A stretch of 64,000 nucleotides of DNA from Actinomycetes bacterium (GTDB taxonomy: Bacteria > Actinomycetota > Actinomycetes > Nanopelagicales > Nanopelagicaceae), in the NCBI GenBank assembly GCA_023252155.1, contig JAHEXJ010000002.1, forward strand, positions 1 through 64,000, written 5' to 3'. The position numbers were made by a program, and so were the translations under genes. The notes under the pieces were generated by a model. That model did no database searches, had not been told where the DNA came from, and saw only the letters and a program-made list of their open reading frames with translations. This document shows, piece after piece, positions 16,633 to 60,698 of the stretch. The first letter of the stretch is position 1. Each line of letters opens with the position of its first letter.

Positions 16633-16661
16633 TTGTCTTTTACGACTTTTACGTCTAAAAT
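16633..16661 (+). promoter_or_regulatory. Candidate housekeeping promoter of the collagen-like gene
   Basis: TTGTCT (16633-16638) and TAAAAT (16656-16661) are separated by exactly 17 bp, close to the primary-sigma consensus. They lie about 60 bp before the ATG at 16720, which has GGAGAGG as ribosome-binding site. Confidence 0.5.
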
Positions 16662-16719
16662 CCCAGCAATATGTAAGTGTGATTCATTTTCCCCACGCTT
16701 ACCGGAGAGGCAAACTGTC

Positions 16720-29652: not shown

Positions 29653-29689
29653 CACAACAAGTTCGCGACAAGAAGAAAAGGATCGAGCC

Positions 29690-37617: not shown

Positions 37618-37620
37618 GCA

Positions 37621-40617: not shown

Positions 40618-41182
40618 GTATTTCCCTCGTTAGGCCGTCTTCACCGACGACTCTTATTTCCAGCGGTAGGCCAATCAAGGATGCCGCCGTGTGGGCCTCT
40701 TTTTCTAATTCAGGGGTCGGGTTCTGCGCCAGCCAAATGACTTGTTCATAATTTTTGAAGTAGTCATCTCTTAATTCAGGACGTTTATCCAACCCAAGTT
40801 CGACAATGACACTTCGGTGAAAGGATTTCACGAGAAAGTCGGTGAGGAAGTATGTGCCTGGAGTTGCCTCCATAATCGTATTGATCTCATTCTGACCGGC
40901 AAAAATGTCGTAGCAGTGATTGCCGCCCAATCGAGGGACGTGATGGGCCTCGATTACGGCATCGAGGGCGCCGTAAGTCCCACAATCTGCATATGCAACG
41001 ACGCATTTTTCATGGTCAGGCTTAATTTTGGACAGAAGTGCATCCACTTCCCCCGCGATTTTCTGGGGGGAATTATGGAGCAACGGCGGGAGGGGATAGA
41101 TAGTGAGATCCAATTCGTAACGCTCTTGAATGGAGGCGATGTGTGTTGCTATCGCACCACAGGCAACGACCCCGATACTCAT
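40598..41182 (-). CDS. DUF1638-family protein of corrinoid methyltransferase operons
   Basis: 194 residues, MSIGVVACGAIATHI start, with cysteines and glycines in YADCGTYGALD and HCYDIFAG that resemble the DUF1638 family, which is found beside MttB/corrinoid systems in methanogens and proteobacteria. Its biochemical role is not established. Last gene of the iclR-corrinoid-metV-metF-mtgA-RACo operon; its start overlaps the RACo stop (ATGA). Confidence 0.7.
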   Translation of the reverse strand: MSIGVVACGAIATHIASIQERYELDLTIYPLPPLLHNSPQKIAGEVDALLSKIKPDHEKCVVAYADCGTYGALDAVIEAHHVPRLGGNHCYDIFAGQNEINTIMEATPGTYFLTDFLVKSFHRSVIVELGLDKRPELRDDYFKNYEQVIWLAQNPTPELEKEAHTAASLIGLPLEIRVVGEDGLTREILSLVRD

Positions 41183-43053
41183 TGGGGAAAGGCTAGACGA
41201 TCCACGAATTTATCGTTGAAATCCGAACGGTCGGAAAGTTCGACGTAGTCGATTTCATCGAGAAGGGCGGTGGCACCGTGTCGCTCTTGAGCCGAAAGCA
41301 AAGTCATTTTTGCACCTTCGCCCGCGACGTTTCCGGCCGAGACAATGCGCAAGACTGAAAGTTTCGGAACCAGGCCGATCTTTATCGCTGAGGCAGGGGA
41401 TAGGTATGATCCAAAAGAGCCAGCAAGAAGAACCTGCTGAATTTCGCTTTCTTCCACTCCGAACTCCTCAAGAAGCAAGGCCCACCCGGTAGCAATAGCG
41501 GCTTTGGCGAACTGCAATTCTCGGACGTCTCGTTGAGTGAGGAATACGCAATCGTTAAGATCGCCGACTTCTCCGCCCCATGTCAGAACAAATACACGCT
41601 CGCCCTCGCGAGTGAGAAGTCGAGACGCCAAAATGGGGGCGACCTCAGAGGCAATTTCATCGGAAACGAATCTGCCTGAATGATCAAGAAGTCCGACTTG
41701 AACCAGACACGCACATGCGTCCACAAGTCCTGATCCGCAAATACCGATCGGGTTGGCATCCTCAATTGTTCCGATGACGAAATCCCCGTCGACAATTTTG
41801 ACCGTCTCTATCGCACCGGAAGCGGCACGAACGCCGCACTTAATGGAGGCTGCCTCAAATGCAGGCCCGGCGGGAGCCGCCGTTGCCAGAATCTTTTCAC
41901 CGTTGCCGAGGATAATTTCGCAGTTTGTGCCAACATCAATAAATAGTCGAAGTCGCTTATCTCGATCCATTCCTGAAGCGAGCGCTCCAGCAATGATGTC
42001 GCCACCAACATAGGCGCCAAGTGAGGGGAGGATTACAGCCTTCGCTCGAGGATGCACGACGATCCCGAGTTCTGAGGCATCGACATCGGTGTAATCAGCG
42101 CTTGCCATGATGAACGGAGCGACTCCGAGAGGTTCGGGATCGATTCCGAGCAGTAGCTGCGTCATCGTCGCATTTCCTGCCAGAGCAACCTCGTAAACGT
42201 GCGCAGGATCAATACCTGCCTCATCGCAGACTTCGTTGGTGAGCTCTGACAAAGTGGCCTGAGCAAGGGAACGCAGACGAGCCAGGGCGGTCGGGTCGAG
42301 CATGGTTGCGCTTATTCGTGTGATGACGTCGGCGCCAAATGGTTGTTGTTTATTAAGCATCGACTTTACTGCAAGTGGGGTACCTGTATTCAAATCAAGC
42401 AAGGTGGCGACCACCGTCGTGGTTCCTAAATCATAAGCAATTCCATATCGGATGGTTGTCGTGTCACCAGGTTCAACGTCAATGAGAGCCTGATCGATAA
42501 ATACGGCTGTCACTTTGAAATGGGATGCTCGTAACACTGTTGGCAAAGTCCGAATGGATGCCAATGAAACTGTGGCTTCAATATCGTCGATTGCATCGAG
42601 AAGTCGCTTAATATCGGTGCGCTGATCTTGCAAAGTAGGTTCGGACAGTTCGACATATCTCTTCTGTACGGCTGGGCGCAAAATGACTTGGCGGCCAACT
42701 CCGACTGTTGCCGCTTTTGGCCTAGTTGTTAGTGGGGGAACGTCAAGGGATATATCGGTGGTGGTGCGTACAAGACATGCCAGTCGCCAACCTTGTGCGA
42801 TCTCACTGGCTGTGAAGGCGCGATTATCCAGCGGAGTAGTCGCAACGTCCCCTTTAGTAATTTTGATCTTGCATTTTTTGCAGGTGCCGTATCCGCCACA
42901 GGTTGAATCGATGGCGATTCCGTTCCAGGAGGCAGCGTCAAATGCGCTGACTCCCGTAGGAACCGTGATCGTGCGCTCGTTTGCAACGGTTCCGTCTTTT
43001 TCGAGCGAGCGAATAGCAAGTTTGACTCTGCCAGTGCCATCGTGTTCTGGCAT
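41179..43053 (-). CDS. RACo/RamA-like reductive activator of corrinoid protein (2Fe-2S, ASKHA)
   Basis: 624 residues. The N-terminal [2Fe-2S] ferredoxin domain has the Cys set DSTCGGYGTCKKCKI plus LACLVRT (about residues 50-95). The large C-terminal ASKHA ATPase region carries YDLGTTTVVATLLDL, FIDVGTNCEI and GICGSGLVDACA, as in DUF4445/RACo proteins, which use ATP to reduce inactive Co(II) corrinoid to Co(I). ATG at 43053; the 31-bp gap after the methyltransferase is the longest within this operon. Confidence 0.87.
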   Translation of the reverse strand: MPEHDGTGRVKLAIRSLEKDGTVANERTITVPTGVSAFDAASWNGIAIDSTCGGYGTCKKCKIKITKGDVATTPLDNRAFTASEIAQGWRLACLVRTTTDISLDVPPLTTRPKAATVGVGRQVILRPAVQKRYVELSEPTLQDQRTDIKRLLDAIDDIEATVSLASIRTLPTVLRASHFKVTAVFIDQALIDVEPGDTTTIRYGIAYDLGTTTVVATLLDLNTGTPLAVKSMLNKQQPFGADVITRISATMLDPTALARLRSLAQATLSELTNEVCDEAGIDPAHVYEVALAGNATMTQLLLGIDPEPLGVAPFIMASADYTDVDASELGIVVHPRAKAVILPSLGAYVGGDIIAGALASGMDRDKRLRLFIDVGTNCEIILGNGEKILATAAPAGPAFEAASIKCGVRAASGAIETVKIVDGDFVIGTIEDANPIGICGSGLVDACACLVQVGLLDHSGRFVSDEIASEVAPILASRLLTREGERVFVLTWGGEVGDLNDCVFLTQRDVRELQFAKAAIATGWALLLEEFGVEESEIQQVLLAGSFGSYLSPASAIKIGLVPKLSVLRIVSAGNVAGEGAKMTLLSAQERHGATALLDEIDYVELSDRSDFNDKFVDRLAFPQ

Positions 43054-43084: not shown

Positions 43085-43960
43085 TTATGCCCCTGTAGTT
43101 AGTGCTGCTTTGGATGCCTCTAGTGCGCGGAATCGGGTGATCCAATTTGAACCCCATGGATCTAGACCAAGGAGCAAATCTGCCGCCCGAACGGCCTCAA
43201 CAATAAGGGGTGTGCGCGCATCCATGACTGCACTTGTAAGGCCATGGGACATCGCGGCGGGAAGAAATGCTGCATTGATCGCGTGACGGTATGGAAGACC
43301 GAAGGAGACGTTGGACGCGCCGAGAGTCATATTCAGGCCCCATTTTTCACGGATTGAGTGGATCGTTTCCAGAGTGACCTTGAGAGAGTCGGGGTCGGCC
43401 CCAACAGGCATCGCCAAAGGATCGATAACAAGATCCTCAAGTGGGATGCCGTATTTCTCAACTGTTCGCACAATCTTTTCAGTGATCGTCATGCGCTCTG
43501 CGACGGTCATTGGAATGCCTGTTGCGTCGTTCGGCAGGGCAATGATGACGGCCCCGTGCCTCTTAATGAGCGGCAGAATCTGATCCATTCGATCTTCCTC
43601 GCCGGTCATGCTGTTCACTAAAGCTTTGCCTTGATATGTCTCAAGGCCCACCTGAAGAGCTTCGATGATTGATGAGTCGATGCAGATTGGAAGATCGGTC
43701 AGCGATTGAATCATTGTGATGGCTCGACCAAGGAGTGCAGGTTCATCGGTCAGGGGAACGCCCATATTCACGTCAAGTACATCGGCGCCGCCACTGACTT
43801 GTTGCTCCACATCAATAGCTAGACGCGAAAGATCGTTGGCTCGCAACTGCAATTGGAATTGCTTTCGCCCTGTCGGGTTGATTCGCTCGCCGATGATGCA
43901 AAATGGCTGGTCGTGCCCGATTGTCACGGTCTTGGTCGCTGATCTAAGTACTGTGTGCAT
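43085..43960 (-). CDS. Methyltetrahydrofolate:corrinoid methyltransferase (MtgA/AcsE-like)
   Basis: 291 residues, pterin-binding TIM barrel: IIGERINPTGRK at the N-terminus, SGGADVLDVNMGVP, PICIDSSIIEALQ, NSMTGEEDRMDQI, DPLAMPVG and LGASNVSFGLP. These match MtgA of betaine degraders, AcsE and the pterin domain of MetH. Expected to move the methyl from methylcobamide to THF. No B12 domain is fused; the corrinoid carrier is encoded separately in the same operon. Confidence 0.87.
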   Translation of the reverse strand: MHTVLRSATKTVTIGHDQPFCIIGERINPTGRKQFQLQLRANDLSRLAIDVEQQVSGGADVLDVNMGVPLTDEPALLGRAITMIQSLTDLPICIDSSIIEALQVGLETYQGKALVNSMTGEEDRMDQILPLIKRHGAVIIALPNDATGIPMTVAERMTITEKIVRTVEKYGIPLEDLVIDPLAMPVGADPDSLKVTLETIHSIREKWGLNMTLGASNVSFGLPYRHAINAAFLPAAMSHGLTSAVMDARTPLIVEAVRAADLLLGLDPWGSNWITRFRALEASKAALTTGA

Positions 43961-43969
43961 TCCGGGCTC

Positions 43970-44896
43970 CTAGAGTGAGTTTGTTTGGACTTGCAAAGTG
44001 GATATGCGAGCAGTTCGCCCGAGGTCTTTCATCAGCCTGACCAATGTGTCGTCGTGCCTGAAATCTGCGATGTGCAGTCCACGGACCCCTGGCTGAGATA
44101 GGGCATGAACTGATTGGTCCAGCGCCAGTTGGTAGGCAGATTCCAACTGATCGCTTCCATGCTCGACTCGCTCAATGATGTGGGAGGGCACGTCTATTCC
44201 TGGAACTTTGTCGTTCATGAAATGAAGTTGCTTCGCGCCTTTGAGTAGAACAATCGTGGGGATGAGATGAAGGGCAGGGGCAATCTTGGCGACTCCTTGG
44301 CAGAATCCCTCCAGCCGATCGGCGTGATAGCAGATCTGAAGTTGCAGGTAACGAGCACCGGCTCGGTGTTTCTTCAATGCTCTCTGAATTCGATATTCAA
44401 CGGGGGGAGCCGCGGCATTTTCAACAGCACCTATATAGAAATTTGTCGGAGGCTTAATTGCGCGGCCAGACAAATAAACCCCGCTATTGAGCGAATTGGC
44501 AACACTTATCGCCTGAGAGGAGTCCATGTCAAAAACGCGCCTTGTTTCGGGTTCATCGCCTGCAGTCACATCATCACCAGTCATAAGTGAGATATTTTCA
44601 ATTCCATGCAGTGCGGCACCCACCATGTCCGCCTGAATCGCAAGTCGGTTCTTATCTCGGCATGCAATCTGCATTATCGGTTCGAGCCCGTGCGATTTCA
44701 CGGCGATGGCAACTGCCATATTGGAAGCATGTGCATGCGCCGCCGGATTATCCGTTGCATTGACTGCGTCGAACCAGGGAGCCATCCGCTCGACATGACT
44801 GATCACACGGGCCATACCCGCTCCGTCAATCGTGGGGAATTCAGCCGTGTAGACGTTCTCGCCAGAATCTTCAAGAATTGTTCGCAAGCGCGACAT
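43970..44896 (-). CDS. metF: Methylenetetrahydrofolate reductase
   Basis: 308 residues, FAD-binding barrel of the MTHFR family: TAEFPTIDGAG, MQIACRDKNRLAIQADM, ISLMTGDD and LQICYH. ATG at 44896 overlaps the stop of the MetV-like gene (ATGA); a longer frame to 44932 lies within metV. In this operon it would oxidise methyl-THF to methylene-THF, the reverse of its biosynthetic direction. An ordinary biosynthetic copy may exist elsewhere. Confidence 0.85.
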   Translation of the reverse strand: MSRLRTILEDSGENVYTAEFPTIDGAGMARVISHVERMAPWFDAVNATDNPAAHAHASNMAVAIAVKSHGLEPIMQIACRDKNRLAIQADMVGAALHGIENISLMTGDDVTAGDEPETRRVFDMDSSQAISVANSLNSGVYLSGRAIKPPTNFYIGAVENAAAPPVEYRIQRALKKHRAGARYLQLQICYHADRLEGFCQGVAKIAPALHLIPTIVLLKGAKQLHFMNDKVPGIDVPSHIIERVEHGSDQLESAYQLALDQSVHALSQPGVRGLHIADFRHDDTLVRLMKDLGRTARISTLQVQTNSL

Positions 44897-45285
44897 CAAT
44901 GTACCTCGCTGGGCGCAGTGCCCTTTTCCCAACCTTTGGGAACTTGCTTATCTTTTTTGCTAAGCAAGTTGATCCAAGACGAAGTTCCCCTTAATTGCAT
45001 ATCGACAGGTGGGCGAAGCTCATTGAAATGATCTCGCCATGCCTGGGGCAGCGGCATCCTCTCTTTTCGCTCGAAAGCTTTTGCCCAGACGCATTGCATG
45101 TCCGGATTTACTTCGCAGTTTCCGTTTTCTCTGACTCCTCCGCAGGGGCCATTTCGCAATGTTTTCGGGCAAGTCATCGGGCATGTCATGCCAGTTGAAT
45201 GCAAGACGCATTGGCCACACATTCGGCAATCCCAAATTGGCTTCTTGATCGCGTGCTCGATTAAGGGGAGGAGTTTTGGAGTCAT
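44896..45285 (-). CDS. metV: MetV-like zinc protein (MTHFR C-terminal domain)
   Basis: 129 residues with a dense cysteine cluster: WDCRMCGQCVLHSTGMTCP, TCPKTLRNGPCGGV, GNCEV and QCVW. This is the MTHFR_C domain, which in acetogens is the zinc subunit MetV partnering MetF. Here it is a free-standing gene directly upstream of, and overlapping, metF. Stop of the corrinoid protein gene is 6 bp upstream. Confidence 0.83.
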   Translation of the reverse strand: MTPKLLPLIEHAIKKPIWDCRMCGQCVLHSTGMTCPMTCPKTLRNGPCGGVRENGNCEVNPDMQCVWAKAFERKERMPLPQAWRDHFNELRPPVDMQLRGTSSWINLLSKKDKQVPKGWEKGTAPSEVH

Positions 45286-45291
45286 TTTATG

Positions 45292-45957
45292 TTATACCGA
45301 TACTAGGTTTCGACGCTTCTTGATTAGATCTTTTGCAAGACGAACTGCTGTGGATGCATCGGCGGCATAACCGTCTGCACCAACAGCATCTGCGTATTCC
45401 TGAGTTACGGGTGCTCCGCCAACCATGATGATGACCTCGTCACGCAGCCCTGCTTTAGTAATTTCATGAATGTTCACTTTGAACATCGGCATAGTCGTTG
45501 TGAGGAAGGCAGACATGCCAACGATGTCCGGCTTATGTTCGCGAATAGCAGCGATGAATTTCTCAGGAGCCGCTTGAACGCCGATGTCGATGACCGTGAA
45601 ACCTGCGCCTTCGAGCATGATGTTGACGAGGTTCTTGCCGATGTCGTGAACATCGCCCTTTACTGTTCCCATTACATATGTACCGATTGATTCAGCGCCC
45701 GTTTCAGCAAGCAATGGTCGAAGGATGTTGAGGGCGCCAGACATGGCCTTACCAGCGATCAGCATTTCTGGGACAAAGTAATCACCGCGTTCGAACCTCG
45801 CTCCCACCTCTTCAAGTGATGGTATGAGGGCATCGAAGAGGATTGTGTCTGGTCCCATCCCCGATTCAATGGCCGTGTTGGTGAGCTCGAGAACTCGGGG
45901 AGCATTTCCCAAAAGGGTCTCGTCATAGAGTGCCTTGATTAATTCGTCGTGGTTCAT
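45292..45957 (-). CDS. Corrinoid (B12-binding) methyl carrier protein, MtgC/MtbC-like
   Basis: 221 residues. N-terminal helical cap (about 1-90; LIAGKAMSGALNILRPLL) and B12-binding Rossmann domain (about 95-215) with the cobalt-ligand motif GDVHDIGKNLV (DxHxxG), VIDIGVQ and GGAPVT. Carries the methyl between the MttB-family enzyme and the pterin methyltransferase. ATG overlaps the iclR stop by 4 bp. Confidence 0.92.
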   Translation of the reverse strand: MNHDELIKALYDETLLGNAPRVLELTNTAIESGMGPDTILFDALIPSLEEVGARFERGDYFVPEMLIAGKAMSGALNILRPLLAETGAESIGTYVMGTVKGDVHDIGKNLVNIMLEGAGFTVIDIGVQAAPEKFIAAIREHKPDIVGMSAFLTTTMPMFKVNIHEITKAGLRDEVIIMVGGAPVTQEYADAVGADGYAADASTAVRLAKDLIKKRRNLVSV

Positions 45958-46727
45958 GCTGCTCCCACTTTCCTTTTATCGGTTTTATCATTTTGTTGGT
46001 TAAGGATCTCGGAGATGATCAGTTCTCCGAGCGTTGCAATCTGCCTATCTGAGATTCTCGGCGTTGGGCCGGAAACGGATATTGCGGCGATGACATTTCC
46101 ATCGGCATCACGGACAGGCGCCGCGACGGCTACTAGTCCCTCTTCCAGTTCGTCTTTAATCGATGCGTAACCTTGTCGGCGGACGAGCTCCAATTCGGCA
46201 AGCAATGCTGGACGGGTTGTAATGCTTTTAGGCGCACGTTTTTCAAGCCGCCCGATTGGAATTTTTACGACGTTATAAGCGAGTAGAACTTTTCCTAATG
46301 CAGAGCAGTGATAGGGCACCTTTGTGCCAACCCAATTCGTCGCACCGAGCAAATATCGACCATCAACTTGGTCAATGAGTTCGACATAACCATTTCCGGG
46401 AATTGCGAGGTTGGCTGTCTCACCGGTTTTCTCGGCAAGGATGTCCAGAACAGGTCGTATTTTCGTAGACAAATCGAGTTCGTGATTTCGCTGTCTGGCG
46501 AAACGAGTGAGAACATTTCCTGGCAAATAAGCCCCGGCACGATCTCTTTGGATTAGACCTTGCTTCTCAAGTGCTCCAAGCAATCGAGACGTAGTGCTTT
46601 TTGGAAGTTCATGCGAAAGTGCTAATTGGCTTAGCAGGGGTGGGTTTATTGCCTCGATGACGTGAATTAGTAGCGCGCTGGCTCTGTCAATCGCCTGCGT
46701 GCCGGTGATCTCGGGTTTGGCCACCAT
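45954..46727 (-). CDS. IclR-family transcriptional regulator
   Basis: 257 residues. N-terminal winged helix (about 12-75: ALLIHVIEAINPP, SHELPKSTTSRLLGALEKQGLI) and C-terminal effector-binding domain (about 90-245: KTGETANLAI, GKVLLAY, GYASIKDELEEGLVAVAAPVRD, ISVSGPTPRI). It heads the corrinoid operon and is divergent from the MttB-family gene across 132 bp that hold a double palindrome. Probably controls both directions in response to betaine or a related compound. Confidence 0.92.
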   Translation of the reverse strand: MVAKPEITGTQAIDRASALLIHVIEAINPPLLSQLALSHELPKSTTSRLLGALEKQGLIQRDRAGAYLPGNVLTRFARQRNHELDLSTKIRPVLDILAEKTGETANLAIPGNGYVELIDQVDGRYLLGATNWVGTKVPYHCSALGKVLLAYNVVKIPIGRLEKRAPKSITTRPALLAELELVRRQGYASIKDELEEGLVAVAAPVRDADGNVIAAISVSGPTPRISDRQIATLGELIISEILNQQNDKTDKRKVGAA

Positions 46728-46763: not shown

Positions 46764-46790
46764 GTTCCACAATATGGAACACCTGTTCCA
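46764..46790. promoter_or_regulatory. Overlapping palindromes, likely IclR operator
   Basis: Three alternating half-sites form two overlapping inverted repeats: GTTCCA-CAATA-TGGAAC (46764-46780) and TGGAACA-CC-TGTTCCA (46775-46790). A fourth partial half-site, GTTCC, is at 46751. The block lies 36 bp from the iclR start and 69 bp from the methyltransferase GTG, suited to control of both divergent units. No clear -35/-10 was identified. Confidence 0.7.
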
Positions 46791-46859
46791 CATTCATAGC
46801 GTATTGTCGTTCCCGTTCTAGGTCAACCCACCGCGCGAAGTATTTACATGGAGGCGTAA

Positions 46860-48299
46860 GTGTTTGAAAATCGAATGCCGCGTTACGACATCCTCAGCGA
46901 AGAATCTATGTCCGTCCTCGACTTGGGATGGCGACGAATAGTTTCTGAAATCGGTGTGGAGTTCATGAGTCCTTGGGCTGTTGAACTTCTTCGCGAAGCC
47001 GGCCAGACAGTTGAAGATGTCAACGTTAAATTCGATCCGGAATGGATACTTGCCCAAGTCGCGAAAGTTCCGAGTGAATTCAATCTTCGTGCGCGCAATC
47101 CGAAGAACAACGTACATATAGGTGGCAACTCGATGGTCTTTGGTGGCGTTTATGGTCCGCCATTCGTCCGAGAGGGAAGCGTCCGTCGCGACGCGACATT
47201 TAATGATTTTCAAAACTTCTGCAAGCTCGCTCAGTCCTTTGACGCACTTGATAGTGTCGGTGGAGTTGTCTGCGAGCCCAATGATCTCTCGCTCGACTCA
47301 CGCCACTTGGATATGGCTTTTGCCGCGGCTACGCTCACGGACAAATTCTTTATGGGCAATGTCGTTACTGCCGAGAACGCTCGAGATGTAATTCATATCG
47401 CCGAGATTCTTCATGGAGGTCGGGCGGCTATCGAGGAGACCCCTGCGCTTATCTCCCTCATAAATTGCAATTCGCCGCTTCGCTGGGATGATCGCATGCT
47501 CGATTCCCTGCGTGAGTATGTACTTGCCGGACAACCGGTTGTAGTTACACCGTTCCTTCTAATGGGAGCAATGAGTCCGGTAACTATTCCTGCAACCCTC
47601 GCACAACAAATTGCTGAGGCTCTCACAGGACTTGCTCTTGCGCAGCTGGTCCGACCAGGCGCGCCGGTCGTCTTCGGATCGTTCCTATCGAATATCGATA
47701 TGCAATCGGGATCACCACAATTTGGAACTCCTGAATCAGGAATTGGACTTCTCTGTACTGGACAGATTGCCCGCCACTTCAAATTACCTTTCCGTGGCGG
47801 TGGGGGGTTGAACTCATCTCAGACAGTCGATGCCCAATCGGCTTATCAGACGATGATGACGATGATGCCGACGTTCTTATCTGGGACCAACTGGGTGATG
47901 CACACCGCTGGATGGCTAGAAGGAGGCTTGGTCTCCTCGTATGACAAATTCATCCTGGATGTGGAAATTCTCCAATCTCTAATGGCCGAATTCACTCCAC
48001 TTGAATTCAACGAGTCATCTTTGGCATTTGACGCTCACGTAGAGGTGGGCCATGGAGGTCACTTCCTCGGTGCGGCACACACCATGGATCGCTTTCGTGA
48101 CTGTTTCTACAGACCTTTTCTGACAAACAGCGACAACTATGAGCGTTGGAATCGCTTGGGCGCGCGTGATACGCGAGCTCGTGCTGAGGAAATTTGGAAG
48201 AAGAAGCTCGAAGATTACGTAATGCCAGACATGGATCCTTCTACATTATTAGAGTTGTCGGAATTCGTGGCTCAACGAAAAAGCCAGCTAGACAGTTGA
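46860..48299 (+). CDS. MttB-family methyltransferase without pyrrolysine (probable glycine betaine:corrinoid methyltransferase)
   Basis: 479 residues of the trimethylamine methyltransferase family: LDLGWRRIVSEIGVEFMSP, FGGVYGPPFVREG, FAAATLTDKFFMGNV, NCNSPLRWDDRML, VVVTPFLLMGAMSPVTIP and a C-terminal HVEVGHGGHFLGAAHT. The frame is uninterrupted, so there is no amber-encoded pyrrolysine; such MttB homologues include the glycine betaine enzyme MtgB. GTG at 46860 has GGAGG 7-8 bases upstream. Followed after 14 bp by an aldehyde dehydrogenase and then the betaine transporter, supporting betaine as substrate; carnitine, proline betaine or another quaternary amine remain possible. Confidence 0.82.
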   Translation: MFENRMPRYDILSEESMSVLDLGWRRIVSEIGVEFMSPWAVELLREAGQTVEDVNVKFDPEWILAQVAKVPSEFNLRARNPKNNVHIGGNSMVFGGVYGPPFVREGSVRRDATFNDFQNFCKLAQSFDALDSVGGVVCEPNDLSLDSRHLDMAFAAATLTDKFFMGNVVTAENARDVIHIAEILHGGRAAIEETPALISLINCNSPLRWDDRMLDSLREYVLAGQPVVVTPFLLMGAMSPVTIPATLAQQIAEALTGLALAQLVRPGAPVVFGSFLSNIDMQSGSPQFGTPESGIGLLCTGQIARHFKLPFRGGGGLNSSQTVDAQSAYQTMMTMMPTFLSGTNWVMHTAGWLEGGLVSSYDKFILDVEILQSLMAEFTPLEFNESSLAFDAHVEVGHGGHFLGAAHTMDRFRDCFYRPFLTNSDNYERWNRLGARDTRARAEEIWKKKLEDYVMPDMDPSTLLELSEFVAQRKSQLDS

Positions 48300-48313: not shown

Positions 48314-49828
48314 GTGTCTGATCAATCCGCGAAGACTTTGTTCTTCGGCGGAGAATGGCGCAGTGCCTCCGATGGCGCTACGCGTGAAATTCGAAGCCCA
48401 GATGACGGATCTTTGGTTGCCGTCGTCTCCGAAGCAACAGAACTCGATGTAGCTTCAGCGATTGCTTCGGCTCGTGCCTCTTTCGACGCTGGAGAATTTC
48501 CATCCTGGGGTTGGGCGAAGAGAAGTGCGCTTGTTGCTCGTATTGCCGATCTGCTTGAACGCGATGCCGAAAAGTTCGCTTTACTCGAAAGCGGCGATAC
48601 TGGTAAACGTCTAATTGAAGCTCGATATGACATCGCCGATGTTGTTTCGGTATTTCGCTATTACGCAGGGTTGGGTCTGACTGAGCATGAACGCGTAGTG
48701 CAAATTGGAGACGATCACATTGATAGCCGAATAATTTCTGAGCCAGTTGGCGTTTGCGCCCTAATCGGGCCCTGGAACTACCCACTGCTCCAAGCTTCGT
48801 GGAAAGTGGCTCCTGCATTAATTGCCGGGTGCTCCTTCATTCTCAAGCCAAGCGAATTAACTCCCTCGACGGCCATTGCCTTGGTACATCTATTTGAAGA
48901 GGCAGGCGTCCCTAAGGGAGTTGCAAATCTAATTCTGGGAGCAGGCGCGGTCGTAGGCACGCCTTTGACTAGCGATAGTCGAGTCGATCTTGTTTCATTT
49001 ACTGGTGGGCTTGAAACGGGTAAACGCATCATGGGTGTCTGCGCCCAGACCGTGAAGAAAGTGGCGCTAGAACTTGGTGGCAAGAATCCAAACATCATCT
49101 TCGCCGACGCCGACCTGGACGCTGCCATTGACAACGCTGTCACCGCCGTGTTTTTGCATTCCGGACAAGTCTGCTCCGCGGGAACCCGTTTACTTGTTGA
49201 GCGTTCTATCCACGATCGAGTCGTCAACCAAATTGTCGCGAGGGCCAAGATGATTCGACTCGGCGGGCCTGATGATCTCGAAGCTGAGACAGGTCCATTA
49301 ATCAGCAAGGCGCATCTGGAAAAGGTCGCCACATACGTCGAGAAGGCTGTAGCCGAAGGTGCCACTTTGTTGACAGGCGGGAAACGGAGCACGTTGGATG
49401 GCCTGCGTGATGGCTGGTACTTCGAGCCGACGGTGCTAGATAACTGCAACACGAAAATGTCTTGTGTGCAGGACGAATCTTTCGGGCCAGTGTTGACGAT
49501 CGAAGTCTTCGACACTGAATCTGAAGCAATTTCACTTGGGAATGACACGATTTATGGTCTGGCTGGCGCGGTTTGGACCAAAGACGTGGCAAAAGCGAAA
49601 CGAGTGGCTGGCGCTCTCCGCCACGGCACCATCTGGATAAATGACTTCGGTCCATACAAAGCTCAGGCTGAATGGGGTGGTTTTAAGGCATCAGGAATTG
49701 GTCGCGAGTTGGGACCAAGTGGTTTACATGAATACCTTGAAATAAAACACGTTTGGACGAACACTTCTCCTGCACGTTCGGGCTGGTTTGCAGATTCGCT
49801 AAATAGCCAAGTGGAGGAAAAAGGATGA
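48314..49828 (+). CDS. Aldehyde dehydrogenase, probably betaine-aldehyde dehydrogenase
   Basis: 504 residues. NAD(P) site [15 protein letters not shown] and [11 protein letters not shown], catalytic Glu in [10 protein letters not shown], catalytic Cys in [15 protein letters not shown], and [10 protein letters not shown]. The close match of these blocks to BetB, with the choline dehydrogenase downstream, suggests oxidation of betaine aldehyde to glycine betaine. GTG at 48314 with GGGAGG upstream; the frame beginning at 48194 overlaps the methyltransferase gene. Stop overlaps the ATPase gene (ATGA). Confidence 0.85.
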
Positions 49829-50856
49829 GTTCGAGTTCGCAGATGATTTCTGTGCGACATCTATGGAAGGTGTTTGGACCAAATTCGGAAAAGATTATTG
49901 GTACTCCGACGGCCGACTTGTCTCGCTCCGAATTGCGCGCGCAGACTGGCAACACGATTGCCGTGCGAGATGTCTCCTTTGATGTGGCACCGGGCGAAGT
50001 GTTCGTCGTTATGGGTCTGTCGGGCTCTGGAAAGTCAACGTTGGTCCGGTGCATGACTAGGTTGATCGAACCCACACAAGGCGAACTTGAACTGCAGGGC
50101 GAAGACATTCTCAAGGTTGACCTGAAACGATTGCGTGAATTGCGACGTTCGAGTTTTTCGATGGTCTTTCAGCACTTCGGACTTCTCCCACATCGCAAAG
50201 TTATCGACAACATCGCATATAGCCTCGAAATTAACGGTGTCAAGAAAGATGCTCGGCACGCACGTGCCAATGAGGTAATTGAACTTGTCGGATTACAGGG
50301 ATATGCAAATGCTTATCCAGAGCAGCTTTCTGGCGGCATGCAGCAGAGAGTTGGACTAGCCCGCGCGCTCGCGGTAGACCCGAAGGTTCTATTTCTTGAC
50401 GAACCTTTCAGTGCGCTTGACCCGCTAATTCGAAGAGATATGCAGGCCGAAGTAATTCGTCTGCACCACGAACTTGGCAAGACCATGGTCTTTATTACTC
50501 ACGATCTTGCAGAAGCCGTCAAACTCGGAGATCGAATCGCGATCATGCGAGACGGCGCCATCGTCCAGATCGGCACTCCAGAAGAACTCGTCGCCTCGCC
50601 AACTGATGAGTATGTTGCCAATTTCGTTCGTGACTTCCCTAAGTCCCATATTCTGACTTTGCGTTGGATAGCCAGAGCACCCGAAGCAGATGATGATCTT
50701 TCAGGTCCAATTCTTTCGCCCACTATTTCTGTTCGCGATGCCGCCCGCCAAGTTCTTGAAGCGGGCTGTTCGGTTCGGGTGATGGAGGAAGGTCGCTTGA
50801 TCGGGGTCGTGACTTCAAGGGACATTTTGGAAGTAATTGCAGGGGTGCAAGTTTAG
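49825..50856 (+). CDS. Glycine betaine/proline ABC transporter ATP-binding protein
   Basis: 343 residues, ProV/OpuAA type. Walker [37 protein letters not shown], signature [15 protein letters not shown], Walker [14 protein letters not shown], and a C-terminal part with one clear CBS motif ([20 protein letters not shown] to [10 protein letters not shown]) which in OpuA senses ionic strength. Overlaps its neighbours on both sides. Confidence 0.92.
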
Positions 50857-52856
50857 TGTCGACCCAATTGTTGACCCCTCCTAGACCCGGTAAACCGCAT
50901 GCCAAAAAGGTTTCCAAGCTGAACGTGTACTTGGGTTCTCTCACGGTCGGGTTCTTGGTCTTTGCCCTTGGATTGCGAGGACATGCGACCCTACCTCTCG
51001 ATCGCTCAAGTCTGACGTCTTTCCAAGAGTGGCTCAATAACGTAAGTGCTTGGATAGATACAAACCGAGATTCAAATCCAATATTCACTACTTTCGTAAA
51101 TGTCATCCGGAACTTCATGGATGGATTTGTGACTTTCCTGCAGAACATGATCAGTCAGACGGGGGATACAAGAACGATTCCTCAGATCGGTTGGTTCGGC
51201 ATTGTCGCCATCATCGGGTTTGTCGTCTACGCGATTTCTAATCTCAAAGTTGCGGTTTTCTCGATGGCAGGCTTCATAACACTTGGGCTCTTTGGACTTT
51301 GGCAAGAATCCATGGATACGTTGGCTTTGACGCTTGCGGCTGTGACGCTCTCTCTTATCATCGGCATTCCACTTGGGGTGTGTGCGGGACTGTATCCGAG
51401 GTTTGAGAAAATGATTACGCCGGCCCTTGATTTTGCTCAAGTCATGCCGACCTTCGTTTACCTAACTCCCGTCACTCTTTTCTTTTTGATTGGCCCAGCC
51501 TCGGCGACGATCGTCACCCTTATTTATGCAGTGCCTCCAGCGCTTCGCATAACGTCTGTGGCGATTAAGCAAGTTCCTTGGTCAAGCGTCGAAGCGGCTG
51601 TATCGATGGGGTCAACGCGCTGGCAGGCCTTACGAAAAGTACAGCTGCCTCAAGCAAAGCGCACCATTGTCGTTGGAGTTAATCAAACCATTATGGCAGC
51701 GCTTTCGATGGTGACGATTGCCGCCCTTATTGATGCTCCGGGGCTTGGACAAGTTGTCATTCGTGCACTTGAATCACTTGATGTTGGTAGGGCATTTCAA
51801 GCAGGACTTGCAATAGTTATTTTGGCTGTCGTACTTGATCGTTCGACCACGGCAGCCGCATCGAAAGTGGATAGTGGAAACACCAAAGCCGAAGTCCAGC
51901 GAAATCACAGGATGGTTCTGGCTGGTCTCGCGGTGTTGACTTTTGTCGCATGTCTTGTCTCGCGATCCATTAACTGGGCTGGTGCATTTCCTGGTTCGGG
52001 GTCCCTTGGGTCCAACACTGCAAAGTATGTTGATATTTATGTGAACTGGTTCCAGATGCACTTTGTAACGTTAACTAATGACATTACTGATGTAGTTTCG
52101 TACGGGCTTATAAATCCGATGCAAACATTGCTGACTGAGAGTCCTTGGTTCGTCACGGGACTTGCATTTGTCGGGCTTGGTGCAATCTTCGGCGGAAAGA
52201 AATTGGCCGCGATTTCTGCATTTTGTGTTTTGGCTATCGTCGGTACTGGCTTGTGGTCTGACACGATGGCAACTCTCGCATCGACCTTAGTGGCGTCGGT
52301 AATTACTGTCGCATTGGGAATCGTTGTTGGTGTCTGGATCGGACGTAGTCGTCGAGCGGAGCGTTGGATCAGGCCCGCGCTGGACGCGGGGCAGGTATTG
52401 CCCGCATTCGTTTACCTCGTTCCATTCTTAGGCTTATTCGGCGCCACCAGATTCACAGCGATCATGGCTGCAGTTGTCTACGCTGCGCCGGCATCAATAA
52501 AGTTGATGGCCGATGGAATTCGGGGAGTGCCCGACTCGATTATCGAAGCTGCAACAGCGGCGGGATCATCTTCCCGGCAGATGATTACCAAAGTTCAGAT
52601 ACCAAGTGCTAGACGAGCACTTGCGTTGGCCACGAATCAGGGCATTATTTATGTTTTGGCCATGATCGTCGTGGGCGGTCTGGTCGGAGCCGGTGGACTC
52701 GGTTATCTCGTCGTCGCGGGATTTGCTCAGGAGAATCTCAAAGGCAAGGGCCTAGCCGCAGGTTTGGCAATTGTGCTGCTGGGAATCATGCTTGACCGTA
52801 TTACGCAGGCGATAGCCCACCGCAATTCTAAGGAATATGCGGCAACATCACACTAG
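50856..52856 (+). CDS. Glycine betaine ABC transporter permease, two permease domains fused
   Basis: 666 residues containing two ProW-like permease domains: about 95-330 (QVMPTFVYLTPV, EAAVSMGSTRWQALRKVQLP) and about 430-655 (QVLPAFVYLVPF, EAATAAGSSSRQMITKVQIP). Each has its own EAA loop, so one chain can supply both halves of the channel. GTG at 50856 overlaps the ATPase stop by one base. Confidence 0.9.
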   Translation: MSTQLLTPPRPGKPHAKKVSKLNVYLGSLTVGFLVFALGLRGHATLPLDRSSLTSFQEWLNNVSAWIDTNRDSNPIFTTFVNVIRNFMDGFVTFLQNMISQTGDTRTIPQIGWFGIVAIIGFVVYAISNLKVAVFSMAGFITLGLFGLWQESMDTLALTLAAVTLSLIIGIPLGVCAGLYPRFEKMITPALDFAQVMPTFVYLTPVTLFFLIGPASATIVTLIYAVPPALRITSVAIKQVPWSSVEAAVSMGSTRWQALRKVQLPQAKRTIVVGVNQTIMAALSMVTIAALIDAPGLGQVVIRALESLDVGRAFQAGLAIVILAVVLDRSTTAAASKVDSGNTKAEVQRNHRMVLAGLAVLTFVACLVSRSINWAGAFPGSGSLGSNTAKYVDIYVNWFQMHFVTLTNDITDVVSYGLINPMQTLLTESPWFVTGLAFVGLGAIFGGKKLAAISAFCVLAIVGTGLWSDTMATLASTLVASVITVALGIVVGVWIGRSRRAERWIRPALDAGQVLPAFVYLVPFLGLFGATRFTAIMAAVVYAAPASIKLMADGIRGVPDSIIEAATAAGSSSRQMITKVQIPSARRALALATNQGIIYVLAMIVVGGLVGAGGLGYLVVAGFAQENLKGKGLAAGLAIVLLGIMLDRITQAIAHRNSKEYAATSH

Positions 52857-52859
52857 GTT

Positions 52860-52901
52860 CCGTTGCTCGCCCGAGCAACGGTTAAGGACGACTTCGGTCG
52901 T
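52860..52901 (+). promoter_or_regulatory. Tandem hairpins between permease and binding-protein genes
   Basis: Hairpin 1: CCGTTGCTC/GAGCAACGG with loop GCCC (52860-52881). Hairpin 2: ACGAC/GTCGT closed by a TTCG tetraloop within C-TTCG-G (52888-52901). They sit just after the permease stop and end 19 bp before the ATG of the binding protein, with GGAGCAGGAGG between. No T-tract, so probably an RNA processing/stability or attenuating element rather than a terminator. Confidence 0.6.
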
Positions 52902-52920
52902 TGGAGCAGGAGGACGCACA

Positions 52921-53886
52921 ATGTTTAAAAATCATCGTGCTCGGCGAGTAACAACTTTCGTGCTACTAGCAGGTGCGGTGACATTTGCGTCATCGGCCGC
53001 TGGATACGCTCAAGTTGGTTTCTCAAAGGCGAGCACCGCAAAATGCGGCACGGTGACCTTGGCGGATAACGCCTGGGTCGGATATGAGGCAAACCTTGCC
53101 GTTGTCCAATACGTGCTGAAGCACAATCTGGGTTGCAAAGTTGTTGTGAAGAACATCAGCGAAGAGATTTCCTGGCAGGGCTTTGCTTCCGGTCAAGTAG
53201 ATGCAATCTTGGAGAACTGGGGACACCAGGATCTAGCCAAGAAGTACATCACCACTCAGAAGGTGGCGGTTGACCTTGGGCTAACTGGCAATAAGGGCAT
53301 CATCGGTTGGTATGTAGTTCCTTGGATGGCCAAGAAGTATCCAGACATCCTGAACTACAAGAACTTGAACAAGTACGCATCCATGTTCAAGACCTCTGAG
53401 TCCGGTTCCAAGGGCGCTTTCCTTGATGGAGACCCTTCATACGTGACCAATGACGAGGCAATCATCAAGAACCTCAAACTCAATTTCAAGGTTATCTATA
53501 CCGGCAGCGAAGCGGCACTGATCACCTCATTCCGCAACGCTGAGGCCCAGAAGAAGCCAATGATTGGTTACTTCTACGAGCCACAGTGGTTCCTGGCTCA
53601 GGTGCCTTTGAAGCACGTCACCTTGCCTCCATACACGACCGGTTGCGATGCAGTTGCAGCAAAGGTTGCTTGCGACTATCCACCGTACCCACTGAACAAG
53701 GTGGCCTCCGCTAAGTTCATGAAGTCAGGATCACCTGCAGCAAAGATGATCAAGAACTTCAAGTGGACAAACGCGGACCAGAACTCCGTTGCAAAGTCAT
53801 TGGCCGTTGATAAGTTGACCGATGATGCCGCTGCGAAGATCTGGGTTACGGCTCACCCAGCACAAGTAAAGGCTTGGCTCGCATAA
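52921..53886 (+). CDS. Glycine betaine-binding protein of ABC transporter (ProX/OpuAC-like)
   Basis: 321 residues with a signal peptide (KNHRARRVTTFVLLAGAV, cleavage near AGYAQV). The mature domain matches quaternary-amine binding proteins: LADNAWVGYEANLAVVQYVL, EEISWQGFASGQVDAILENWG and IGYFYEPQWFLAQVPL, including tryptophans typical of a betaine cage. No lipobox cysteine. ATG at 52921 follows AGGAGG; the frame from 52837 is rejected as it crosses the permease end and the hairpins. Confidence 0.9.
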   Translation: MFKNHRARRVTTFVLLAGAVTFASSAAGYAQVGFSKASTAKCGTVTLADNAWVGYEANLAVVQYVLKHNLGCKVVVKNISEEISWQGFASGQVDAILENWGHQDLAKKYITTQKVAVDLGLTGNKGIIGWYVVPWMAKKYPDILNYKNLNKYASMFKTSESGSKGAFLDGDPSYVTNDEAIIKNLKLNFKVIYTGSEAALITSFRNAEAQKKPMIGYFYEPQWFLAQVPLKHVTLPPYTTGCDAVAAKVACDYPPYPLNKVASAKFMKSGSPAAKMIKNFKWTNADQNSVAKSLAVDKLTDDAAAKIWVTAHPAQVKAWLA

Positions 53887-54003: not shown

Positions 54004-55653
54004 GTGGTTGCGCAATACGACTACATCATTGTTGGTGGAGGATCGGCTGGAAGCGCATTAGGTAACCGGTTAAGTGCCGACCCAAATCACGAAGTTCTCA
54101 TTCTTGAAGCAGGTCGACGAGACTACAAGTGGGATGTTTTCATTCACATGCCTGCTGGCCTCGCATTTCCTATCGGCAATAAGCACTACGACTGGATGTA
54201 TGAGTCCGAGCCTGAACCTTTTATGAACAACCGGCGCATCTATCATGCCCGTGGGAAAGTGCTTGGGGGCTCGAGCAGCATCAACGGAATGATTTGGCAG
54301 CGCGGAAATCCGATGGATTATGAGCGTTGGTCGCAAGATCAAGGGATGGAGAATTGGGACTACGCGCACTGCCTCCCGTATTTCAAGCGTATGGAGACAT
54401 GCCTAGCCGATCCGAACAATCCTTTCAGAGGCAACGGCGGGCCACTACAACTTGAGCGCGGCCCAGTGAAAGGTCCTCTATTTAAGGCGTTTTTTGACGC
54501 AACAGTTCAGGCAGGTTATTCGCGCACCGATGATGTCAATGGTTTTCGGCAGGAAGGTTTTGCGGCTTTCGATCGTAATGTGCGCAGAGGGCGCCGCCTC
54601 AGCGCAGCCAGGGCTTACCTATACCCCGTAAAGAGCCGTAAGAATTTGCACATCAAGACTAAAGCGATGGTCACCAAAGTTCTATTTGATGGCAATCGAG
54701 CAATCGGCGTCGAAGCGATTGTCAAAGGCAAGAAGCAGAATTTCTTGTCAAAGGACGTTGTACTTTGCGGGGGAGCGATCAACACCCCACAGATTCTTCA
54801 GCTTTCAGGAATTGGAAATGCTCAGGACCTAGCCAAACTCGGAATAAAAGTTGTTAAGGATCTGCCTGGAGTCGGCGCAAACCTCCAAGACCACTTAGAA
54901 GTCTACGTTCAGTATTCATGCAAGCAACCGGTATCTATGCAACCCATGCTGAAATTCTGGCGCAGGCCCTTCATCGGCGCAGAATGGCTTTTCCTTAGAA
55001 AAGGACCTGGTGCCACAAATCATTTCGAAGCCGGCGGTTTCGCTCGTAGCAACGACAAGGTGGCCTACCCAAACCTGATGTTCCATTTCCTTCCTCTTGC
55101 TATTCGCTATGACGGCACGGCTCCTTCATCTGGACATGGCTATCAAGTCCATGTAGGACCTATGTATTCGGATGCGAGGGGCTCAGTGATGATAAGCAGT
55201 ACAAATCCAATGGACAAACCCAAGCTTAAATTCAACTATCTTTCGACGGAGCAGGACAAGGAAGAATGGGTGGAAGCGATCCACGTTGCCCGAAAAATCC
55301 TGACTCAGAAAGCGATGGAACCATTCAATGCTGGGGAGACCTCCCCTGGCTCATCGGTTGATACCGACGAGGAAATCTTGAATTGGGTTCGAAAGGATGG
55401 GGAAACCGCATTGCACCCATCGTGCACGGCGAAAATGGGTACCGATGAGATGTCAGTGGTCGATCCAAACACCATGAAAGTTCATGGCGTCGAGGGGCTT
55501 CGAGTCGCGGATGCTTCAGTCTTCCCATACGTGACAAACGGGAATATCTATGCGCCGGTCATGATGGTGGCAGAAAAGGCTGCCGACTTAATTCTTGGCA
55601 AGCAACCGCTGCCTCCTGAGAACATTGAGTTCTACCGTCACCAGAAGGTTTAA
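54004..55653 (+). CDS. betA: Choline dehydrogenase / GMC oxidoreductase
   Basis: 549 residues. N-terminal FAD motif [20 protein letters not shown] signature 1 [18 protein letters not shown], signature 2 [16 protein letters not shown], and catalytic His in [10 protein letters not shown] with a C-terminal [12 protein letters not shown]. Length and motifs match BetA, which oxidises choline to betaine aldehyde. GTG at 54004 with GAAGGGTGG upstream. Placement after the betaine transporter and BetB-like genes supports choline as substrate. Confidence 0.85.
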
Positions 55654-55655
55654 CA

Positions 55656-56489
55656 ATGAAAGATGAAGAATCTGCTCCGTCCTCGATCGCGAAAGTAAAA
55701 GTTCAAGATACTGGGGCGGATTCTTCGAGCACGGATAGCGTTGTCGTGGAGGAACCTCTCGAGATTCGAATTAAACGAGCTGGAATTGAGGAGCAACTCG
55801 GAATCACAATGCGCACGCCTGGCGCTGATTTGGAGCTAGCTACTGGATTTTTATGGGGAGAGGGATTTCTTTCGTCTCCCGATGAATTAATTGGCGTGAA
55901 AGTCTGTGGGGATCGAAGTCTGACTCCGCGACAACGTGCCAACATCGTGATTGCTCAAGTCAGAGATGACGCACCCGTGCATCCCCGCGCACTTGAGCGC
56001 CGATTTACGATGACATCGGCATGCGGTGTTTGCGGCTCAACGAGCATTTCGGATTTGCACAAACGCGGGGTTAAGTCCGTGGCAACGACTTCGCATTCCA
56101 TCCAAGAATTGGCCCAGATGCCAGAGCTCCTAGAGGGTCGACAAAGCGTCTTCGATAAGACGGGAGGACTGCATGCGGCTTTACTTGTAGATCCGTCCGG
56201 AAAGGGACGTTGGATCAGAGAAGATGTAGGTCGACACAACGCCGTCGATAAAGTCATTGGCGCTGCGCTTATCGCCCATGAACTCCCCTTGAGCGATTGG
56301 ACACTTGTTGTCTCCGGTCGCGTCGGCTACGAAATCGTTCAGAAGGCGATAGTTGCGGGGATATCGGCTCTAGTTGGCGTCTCGGCACCCACTTCGTTGG
56401 CGGTTGATTTGGCGAAGGATTTCGAACTCACCTTGCTTGCCTTCGCTCGCAACGGCAAGGCAAAGGTCTATTTGCCGCTGTTAGGATAA
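55656..56489 (+). CDS. fdhD: Formate dehydrogenase accessory sulfurtransferase
   Basis: 277 residues of the FdhD family: CxxC sulfur carrier motif in TSACGVCGSTS (about residue 125), GGLHAALLV, REDVGRHNAVDKVIG and SGRVGYEIVQKA. Sulfurates the Mo-bis-MGD cofactor needed by formate dehydrogenase. It starts 2 bp after betA and is followed by molybdate transport genes, tying this operon to the FDH encoded 15 kb away. Confidence 0.94.
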   Translation: MKDEESAPSSIAKVKVQDTGADSSSTDSVVVEEPLEIRIKRAGIEEQLGITMRTPGADLELATGFLWGEGFLSSPDELIGVKVCGDRSLTPRQRANIVIAQVRDDAPVHPRALERRFTMTSACGVCGSTSISDLHKRGVKSVATTSHSIQELAQMPELLEGRQSVFDKTGGLHAALLVDPSGKGRWIREDVGRHNAVDKVIGAALIAHELPLSDWTLVVSGRVGYEIVQKAIVAGISALVGVSAPTSLAVDLAKDFELTLLAFARNGKAKVYLPLLG

Positions 56490-56493
56490 TTTA

Positions 56494-57255
56494 ATGAGAC
56501 GCCGTGGGAGAGTTCTTCTTATTTTCATCGCTTTATTAGGCCTTGTCGCCACTCCTTCTTACGGATCCTATAAACGAAATGAAAATGTCACTCTCACGGT
56601 CTTCGCCGCCGCCAGCCTAGGTCAAACATTCACTACGATAGGCAAACAATTTGAGGCTAAGCACCCGGGCGTCAAAGTTCAGTTCTCATTCCTGGCATCC
56701 TCAACTCTTGCGACACAGCTACTGGCCGGAGCCCCAGCGGATGTATTTGCGTCGGCTTCTATTTATGACATGGCGATGGCTAAATCGCTTGTTCCAGTGT
56801 CGAAGGTCTTTACCGCAAATCGAGTGATTGTCGCCACGCCATTAGGAAATAGATTTAATATTAATAAGGTGGTAGATCTAAACAAGCGTGGCCTGAAATG
56901 GATTCAATGTGCCCACAATGTTCCATGTGGCGCGGCGGCAGATGCGGCTCTCGCTTATGAGGGACGCATTACATCCAAGCCAGTTTCTTTAGAGCCGAAG
57001 GTATCAAGTGTTGTTGCCAAGGTTGTTGAGGGTGAAGTAGATGCCGCGATTATCTATCACTCAGATTACATCGCGAATAGGTCTGTACTTAAGGAAATCC
57101 GATTCAAAGGGATAGCGGCCGCAACGACTGAGTACCCAATAGGCGTGGTGAAAACCAGCCCACGTCAACAATTGGCTCAGAGTTTTGTTGAAAGTGTTCT
57201 TTCCGCGTATGGGCGGAAGATTCTGGCTGAGGCCGGATTTATCCGAGTTAATTGA
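56494..57255 (+). CDS. modA: Molybdate-binding protein of ABC transporter
   Basis: 253 residues with an N-terminal signal peptide (RRRGRVLLIFIALLGLVATPSYG). TVFAAASLGQTFTTIGKQFEAKHPG, FSFLASSTLATQLLAGAPADVFASA and YPIGVVKTS match ModA. 4 bp after fdhD. Confidence 0.92.
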   Translation: MRRRGRVLLIFIALLGLVATPSYGSYKRNENVTLTVFAAASLGQTFTTIGKQFEAKHPGVKVQFSFLASSTLATQLLAGAPADVFASASIYDMAMAKSLVPVSKVFTANRVIVATPLGNRFNINKVVDLNKRGLKWIQCAHNVPCGAAADAALAYEGRITSKPVSLEPKVSSVVAKVVEGEVDAAIIYHSDYIANRSVLKEIRFKGIAAATTEYPIGVVKTSPRQQLAQSFVESVLSAYGRKILAEAGFIRVN

Positions 57256-57256
57256 A

Positions 57257-58058: not shown

Positions 58059-58304
58059 ATGAATCTCCCAGTCACGGTGCGCCTATATGCGGCAGCGCGG
58101 TCGGCCGCGGGTGTTAGCGAGGTTGAAGTTACTCCTGACAATCTCGGACACATACTTCTGTCACTTGCTTTTGGCAATCCACGTTTGTCACAAGTATTTG
58201 CCCAATGCTCGTTTCTTATCGATGGTGTTGCAGTTCACGACAAGCAAGTAGAAGTTGCTGCCGGAAGTACGGTCGATATTTTGCCGCCCTTTGCCGGAGG
58301 CTAG
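58059..58304 (+). CDS. moaD: Molybdopterin synthase small subunit (MoaD/ThiS-like)
   Basis: 81 residues, beta-grasp fold, TVRLYAAARSAAG at the start and the C-terminal PPFAGG tail whose terminal Gly-Gly is thiocarboxylated. Start ATG at 58059, 10 bp after modB. Its 3' end overlaps the convergent moaA stop by 4 bp. Confidence 0.88.
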   Translation: MNLPVTVRLYAAARSAAGVSEVEVTPDNLGHILLSLAFGNPRLSQVFAQCSFLIDGVAVHDKQVEVAAGSTVDILPPFAGG

Positions 58305-60191: not shown

Positions 60192-60197
60192 CTTCTC

Positions 60198-60674: not shown

Positions 60675-60698
60675 AACGGCTAATGGTAGCCGCGAAGG

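Follow-up and report, generated by a model that had tools for sequence, protein, structure and literature searches.

A predicted non-pyrrolysine glycine betaine:corrinoid methyltransferase in a putative methyl-oxidation gene cluster of an actinobacterium

The window analysed here, a stretch of 64,000 nucleotides from an actinobacterial contig (JAHEXJ010000002.1, family Nanopelagicaceae), harbours at positions 46860-48299 (+) a gene for a 479-aa MttB-family protein that, judged by sequence, is probably a glycine betaine (GB):Co(I)-corrinoid methyltransferase feeding C1 oxidation; we put the probability of this reading at roughly 0.83. That GB is the best-supported substrate is well supported, mainly by gene context, as three gene blocks ranging from choline and GB import to methyl oxidation are located within one 35-kb stretch. 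With the parts of these blocks and a FolD gene elsewhere in the genome, a route would be encoded that leads from choline to GB, from GB to dimethylglycine (DMG) and a methyl group, and from the latter via formate to CO2. The families of the parts, their order, their conservation and an operator-like palindrome can be read from the sequences; from these we infer the substrate, the direction of the individual steps, the ATP yield, aerobic operation and the reliance on imported B12.

An MttB-family enzyme without pyrrolysine

The reading frame starts with GTG, is preceded by GGAGG at 46850-46854 and comprises 480 codons, the only stop being the terminal TGA. The Pfam model MTTB matches residues 3-477 of the product (E 7.9e-183; 608 bits, cut-off 25), and both hallmarks of the MttB superfamily, i.e. 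a full-length model match and a TIM-barrel fold, are present. The gene, hereafter mtgB, is a single copy in its genome (1.81 Mb, 114 contigs, 84% complete). The initial annotation had described an MttB-family frame without amber codon that is distinct from trimethylamine (TMA) methyltransferases, and both statements are borne out. TIGR02369, the model for pyrrolysine TMA methyltransferases, yields 251 bits, far under the cut-off of 525, and Leu317 occupies the alignment column of the M. barkeri MttB pyrrolysine (printed X). In conjunction with the lack of an in-frame amber codon, these results rule out a pyrrolysine TMA methyltransferase. The designation as an MtgB-type enzyme, predicted to use GB, draws on the MTTB match, a structural model, its similarity to 9YCE and the pocket residues.

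The AlphaFold (AF2) model (pLDDT 94, pTM 0.91) superimposes on MtgB of D. hafniense (DhMtgB; 9YCE and 2QNE) with a TM score of 0.97 and an rmsd of 1.2-1.4, on S. meliloti 4YYC with a TM score of 0.95 and on MttB with 0.92. For DhMtgB, Y94, N199, R309 and H345 have been proposed as GB contacts, on the basis of docking and not of a ligand-bound structure (PMC6855144). They correspond to Y98, N202, R312 and H348 in the actinobacterial protein and are invariant or nearly so in its clade (see below). Altogether, Y98, F102, M165, G166, N202, R312 and H348 are common to the actinobacterial clade, the 4YYC clade and DhMtgB. In 29 sequences of the clade, 77 4YYC-type sequences and DhMtgB, Tyr98, Phe102, Met165 and Gly166 are near-uniform, whereas 18 other MttB-family sequences of unassigned substrate mostly differ at these positions. 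The only departure is the aromatic F353 of DhMtgB, which is replaced by Gly356 here and likewise by Gly in almost all non-Dh sequences compared. A check of structure and pocket, as advised in the initial annotation, thus speaks for the MtgB type, F353 excepted, and the model supports, but does not prove, a GB-type pocket.

From a phylogenetic perspective, the enzyme stands apart. It shares 41% identity with DhMtgB, 43% with 4YYC and 25% with M. barkeri MttB. In an IQ-TREE phylogeny of 63 rows, from which the MtpB, MtcB, MtyB and R. pomeroyi MtgB1/2 sequences were left out, the actinobacterial sequences including the mtgB product form their own clade (support 100/100), which is set off by a long stem and lies apart from DhMtgB. 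Within it, the protein is placed beside a 'Candidatus Nanopelagicales' locus (95/91), which, along with a genome size of 1.8 Mb and a moderate GC content, points to an aquatic actinobacterium of Nanopelagicales type. Another clade (100/99) comprises S. meliloti 4YYC together with sequences of Rhodobacterales and further groups. According to this topology, the enzyme belongs neither to the DhMtgB clade nor to the rhizobial clade. The comparison with characterised MtgB that had been recommended at the outset therefore gave no grouping with DhMtgB in this tree without MtpB and MtcB, and a plain assignment to the MtgB clade is ruled out. Among solved structures, 4YYC has the highest sequence score (412 bits) and shares the fold, the HxAGWLEGG motif and the pocket signature, but differs in its clade and is 43% identical. 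A plasmid search with DhMtgB for relatives in Firmicutes retrieved only distant homologues, which were mostly alphaproteobacterial.

Three linked gene blocks from choline import to formate oxidation

On the plus strand, mtgB is followed after 14 nt by a gene for a betaine-aldehyde dehydrogenase (BADH, 48314-49828), whose best match, TIGR01804, reaches 572 bits and remains below the cut-off of 668.6. Next come genes for ProV, a betaine/choline ABC transporter ATPase (49825-50856; TIGR01186, 351 bits, cut-off 327), the permease ProW (50856-52856; TIGR03416, 386 bits, cut-off 363) and a ProX/OpuAC-type substrate-binding protein (52837-53886; PF04069, E 1.1e-33; matches to betaine-binding structures). 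The block continues with choline dehydrogenase (BetA, 54004-55653; TIGR01810, 850 bits, cut-off 732), the formate dehydrogenase accessory sulfurtransferase FdhD (55656-56489; TIGR00129, over cut-off) and ModAB-like molybdate transporter genes (56494-58048), the last of which we assigned by our own reading of the translations. Since the largest gap, which precedes the choline dehydrogenase gene, measures only 117 nt, a single operon from mtgB to the ModAB-like genes is likely. The initial annotation had stated that mtgB is transcribed with BADH, an OpuA-type transporter and choline dehydrogenase. These neighbours are real and lie on the same strand, whereas co-transcription is a likely deduction from the spacing. 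Two stretches of ProW match the permease model, which suggests a duplicated permease within one chain. The cluster is adjoined at 58301-62686 (-) by molybdenum cofactor genes (MoaA, MoaE, MoaB, MoaC, MoeA and MobA, again by our own reading), consistent with a molybdenum formate dehydrogenase.

Divergent from mtgB, the minus strand carries a corrinoid block, the genes of which overlap or are separated by short gaps. It encodes an IclR-family regulator (45954-46727; Pfam IclR_C, E 3.6e-34; best NCBIfam match BhcR, below cut-off), an MtgC-like corrinoid protein with the cobalt-ligand motif D102-x-H104-x-x-G (45292-45957; Pfam B12-binding and B12-binding_2; best NCBIfam match MtgC_2, 205 bits, below the cut-off of 370), a MetV-like protein (DUF5981, 44896-45285; PF12225, E 1.3e-26) and methylenetetrahydrofolate reductase (MetF, 43970-44896; PF02219, E 8.7e-27), the start of which is likely the ATG at 44896. 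The adjacent gene specifies a pterin-binding methylcorrinoid:tetrahydrofolate methyltransferase of the MtgD/AcsE type (43085-43960; NF005719, 295 bits, cut-off 259), whose closest solved structures are 5-methyl-tetrahydrofolate:corrinoid/Fe-S protein methyltransferases; the D. hafniense MtgA structures are absent among its solved relatives. Further along are RACo, an ATP-dependent reductive activase of corrinoid proteins with an N-terminal 2Fe-2S domain (41179-43053; PF14574, PF17651, PF17650 and Fer2, all over cut-off; nearest structure 3ZYY), and, overlapping it by 4 nt, a DUF1638 protein (40598-41182; PF07796), the predicted partner in corrinoid reactivation. The linked corrinoid protein, pterin-binding methyltransferase and RamA/RACo-type activase that mark an MtgBCD system are thus all in place, and the linkage is also found in relatives.

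The third block, on the plus strand at a distance of 6-18 kb from mtgB, was missing from the gene list of the initial annotation and is the strongest clue to the substrate. Its first gene codes for a GntR-type regulator (28987-29652; own reading of the translation, position conserved in relatives), followed by a DMG dehydrogenase with FAD and GcvT domains (29624-32209), the best solved relatives of which are DMG oxidase 1PJ5 (537 bits) and DMG dehydrogenase 5L46/4PAB. EtfB and EtfA (32209-33947), the presumed electron acceptor of this dehydrogenase, were assigned from EtfA family matches below the cut-offs and, for EtfB, from position and our own reading, their order being conserved. Formate-tetrahydrofolate ligase (Fhs, 33951-35615; NF010030, 899 bits, cut-off 652) precedes an NAD-type formate dehydrogenase (35615-40617), which consists of FdsG (35615-36076), FdsB (36073-37617) and FdsA with an FdsD-like C-terminus (37621-40617); matches to TIGR01591 (893 bits, cut-off 666) and PF11390 FdsD back this assignment.

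Conservation among relatives and in other Actinomycetota

The MttB gene occurs in 12 of 37 genomes of the family, the source genome included, and within the family DUF1638 is found in exactly the same 12; a thirteenth genome with DUF1638 lies outside the family. As the cluster is absent from most family members, it fits an accessory catabolic trait. In ten MttB-bearing relatives, which belong to the same genus or to three other genera of the family, MtgB identity is 81-98% and the gene order is largely kept as far as the contigs reach, some of the ten being covered by partial contigs only. The conserved order runs GntR-DMGDH-EtfBA-Fhs-Fds / DUF1638-RACo-methyltransferase-MetF-MetV-corrinoid-IclR / MtgB-BADH-ProVWX-choline dehydrogenase-FdhD. 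In an eleventh relative, the contig ends in an MttB fragment, and the downstream genes are present. The coupling to a close DMG dehydrogenase is not strict, for three family genomes have the dehydrogenase without MttB, and one relative (G024) has MttB but lacks a close DMG dehydrogenase.

Scanning named genomes revealed 17 actinobacterial loci with 62-87% identity to the mtgB product, originating from Nanopelagicales, Phycicoccus, Nocardioides, Pseudonocardia, Actinophytocola, Acidimicrobiaceae and others. Below this group there is a gap to sequences of 46% identity and lower, mostly from Pseudomonadota. A corrinoid protein is encoded near the gene in 14 of the 17 loci, and DMG dehydrogenase and/or choline, BADH or ProVWX genes in 12; short contigs explain some of the loci without linked genes. 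Seven loci without MetF/MetV of the window type (L066-L070, L075 and L079) have, towards the DUF1638 end of the block, a MetF of another kind. The clade gene is present in the cultured strains Phycicoccus jejuensis NRRL B-24460 and Nocardioides iriomotensis NBRC 105384, which makes the proposed function testable. One genome from another family of the same phylum (G264, locus L037) has three MttB-family genes, one of which is 67% identical to the protein studied here.

Proposed pathway and alternative explanations

In the proposed pathway, MtgB would convert GB into DMG and hand over one methyl group to the corrinoid protein of the divergent block, from which the pterin-binding methyltransferase would transfer it to tetrahydrofolate. 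MetF/MetV, FolD, Fhs and formate dehydrogenase could then oxidise the methyl group to CO2, whereby the reversed Fhs reaction would likely yield ATP and formate dehydrogenase NADH. RACo, probably together with DUF1638, would return Co(II) to Co(I) after oxidation of the cofactor, and DMG dehydrogenase with ETF would turn DMG into sarcosine.

The earlier view that the operon points to GB gains support from these data, with the substrate being deduced from context. The enzymes that lead to GB (choline dehydrogenase and BADH), a betaine/choline-type importer and a DMG dehydrogenase with ETF that would consume the product are clustered, this linkage is seen again in the ten relatives and across most of the wider clade, and the proposed pocket residues, apart from F353, are kept. 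Points that weigh against GB are the identities of only 41% and 43% to DhMtgB and 4YYC, the separate clade, the exchange of F353 for Gly356 and the lack of a close DMG dehydrogenase in G024.

It is conceivable that the main substrate is another quaternary amine, such as proline betaine, carnitine, gamma-butyrobetaine or choline, and that the choline and GB genes serve osmolyte uptake and are merely nearby. ProX-type binding proteins can accept several betaines, the clade is distinct from DhMtgB, and F353 of DhMtgB is replaced. Moreover, MtyB and MtcB are 53% identical and differ in substrate (PMC8604678). However, proline betaine, carnitine and gamma-butyrobetaine would give no DMG, whereas most relatives and many members of the clade have a linked DMG dehydrogenase operon; direct demethylation of choline would have no need of choline and betaine-aldehyde dehydrogenases, and the proposed GB-pocket residues are retained. 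We therefore regard another main substrate as unlikely. MtpB, MtcB and MtyB of Eubacterium limosum are, like the mtgB product, non-pyrrolysine MttB-family quaternary amine methyltransferases (PMC8604678), but their substrates would give no DMG; it is by substrate, not by placement in the tree, that they are set apart here.

A further possibility, compatible with GB demethylation, is that the corrinoid and pterin-binding proteins also serve methionine synthesis as in R. pomeroyi, so that the system would be partly anabolic. The module types match that dual-function roseobacter system, and a homocysteine-binding-domain protein is present in the genome. Yet a normal multidomain MetH is encoded separately (1035.7 bits, cut-off 1010.85, despite being cut at the locus end), and the cluster is linked to genes of C1 oxidation, which renders an anabolic role improbable.

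The genome also encodes a BHMT-like protein of 296 aa on contig C93 (L144:1465-2352; 283 bits, cut-off 338), which could provide a second GB route or is perhaps a homocysteine module. That GB is demethylated by such an enzyme while the MttB protein channels a different compound into the same C1 oxidation route is highly improbable, as this protein, its presence notwithstanding, scores below the BHMT cut-off and lies outside the cluster, S. meliloti Bmt has been interpreted as the homocysteine module MtgE and not as a GB enzyme (PMC12478193), and BHMT would render the clustered corrinoid module superfluous. A GB route via Rieske monooxygenase was rejected, as PF00848 had no match in the source genome, which is only 84% complete, or in the ten relatives, seven of which show a completeness of 90% or more and little contamination.

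Relation to known systems

Corrinoid-dependent betaine demethylation has long been linked to anaerobes. This applies to D. hafniense, the anaerobic host of DhMtgB, with which the actinobacterial enzyme shares the family, the fold, the absence of pyrrolysine and the proposed GB contacts, but not the clade. An aerobic counterpart is known from R. pomeroyi, in which MtgBCD is used for both GB and methionine synthesis and growth on GB requires MtgC and MtgD (PMC12478193). This system of marine Pseudomonadota has the same set of parts (pfam06253, a corrinoid protein, a pfam00809 methyltransferase, a RamA-like activase, DUF1638 and a metF-type gene) and, as we propose for the actinobacterium, an aerobic host (PMC12478193). 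We liken R. pomeroyi MtgB1/2 to the mtgB product by this module set, not by direct sequence comparison. In R. pomeroyi, however, methionine synthesis uses the module as well and the genes are scattered, whereas here MetH is separate and one locus covers choline uptake through formate oxidation.

With regard to physiology, the source genome encodes haem-copper oxidase subunit I, and the cobalamin synthase CobS was found neither there nor in eight relatives (each at least 94% complete, some 98-100%), while the search was positive in 10 of 14 control genomes. This gene content suggests an aerobic organism in which methionine synthesis runs separately and B12 is taken up from outside. As a single family was tested, the B12 dependence is tentative; if the absence of CobS is real, the cells need the B12 of others to use an abundant osmolyte.

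The chemistry as such is already known from the aerobic MtgBCD of roseobacters (2025), and it is the actinobacterial enzyme branch, a clade of its own, that is uncharacterised. In the literature searched, neither this clade nor the cluster is described; 5% of marine mtgC reads have been assigned to Actinomycetota (PMC12478193) and peat Actinobacteriota MAGs express demethylation genes for methylated amines (PMC10805028). The cluster would bring corrinoid-dependent betaine demethylation, in the form of a self-contained catabolic unit, to aerobic Actinomycetota, among them lineages that appear to be planktonic, and it offers a clear test of whether MtgB clades that are about 40% identical share a GB pocket. 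A broader proposal, to which we give even odds, is that free-living Actinomycetota from aquatic plankton to Phycicoccus and Nocardioides isolates have a dedicated, oxygen-compatible, B12-dependent methyl-oxidising pathway with an independently diverged MtgB. It would convert choline and GB methyl groups to CO2 and gain substrate-level ATP from the reversed formate-tetrahydrofolate ligase, with the aquatic lineage drawing on its neighbours' B12.

The DUF1638 protein and a candidate operator

In R. pomeroyi, the abundance of RamA and DUF1638 is higher on N-osmolytes (PMC12478193), and in Phaeobacter inhibens, methionine synthase genes are co-fit with DUF1638 and a RamA-like protein (PMC5764234). 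The DUF1638 model has a pLDDT of 96, and Cys7, Cys66, Cys89 and His35 are invariant across 38 sequences. A fold search against solved structures gave no match at E<=0.001, the best TM score being about 0.4 or less. Possibly, the protein has a fold not described so far, with a site for a metal or a cofactor.

The IclR/mtgB intergenic region contains the palindrome TGGAACACCTGTTCCA (46775-46790), a predicted IclR-family operator, and the IclR-family protein probably controls both divergent promoters. The pattern TGGAAC-N4-GTTCCA occurs upstream of mtgB in 18 of 28 loci of the clade, with 14 different spacers, and was found 0 times in shuffled upstream sequences. Because the pattern was picked after being seen and a second exact copy exists in the window at 18405-18420, the case for an operator rests on the conserved position and the variable spacer, not on rarity. 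The second copy is located within the gene for a collagen-like protein (16633-18555 (+)), which comprises 641 codons and contains two Gly-X-Y runs of 64 and 61 triplets.
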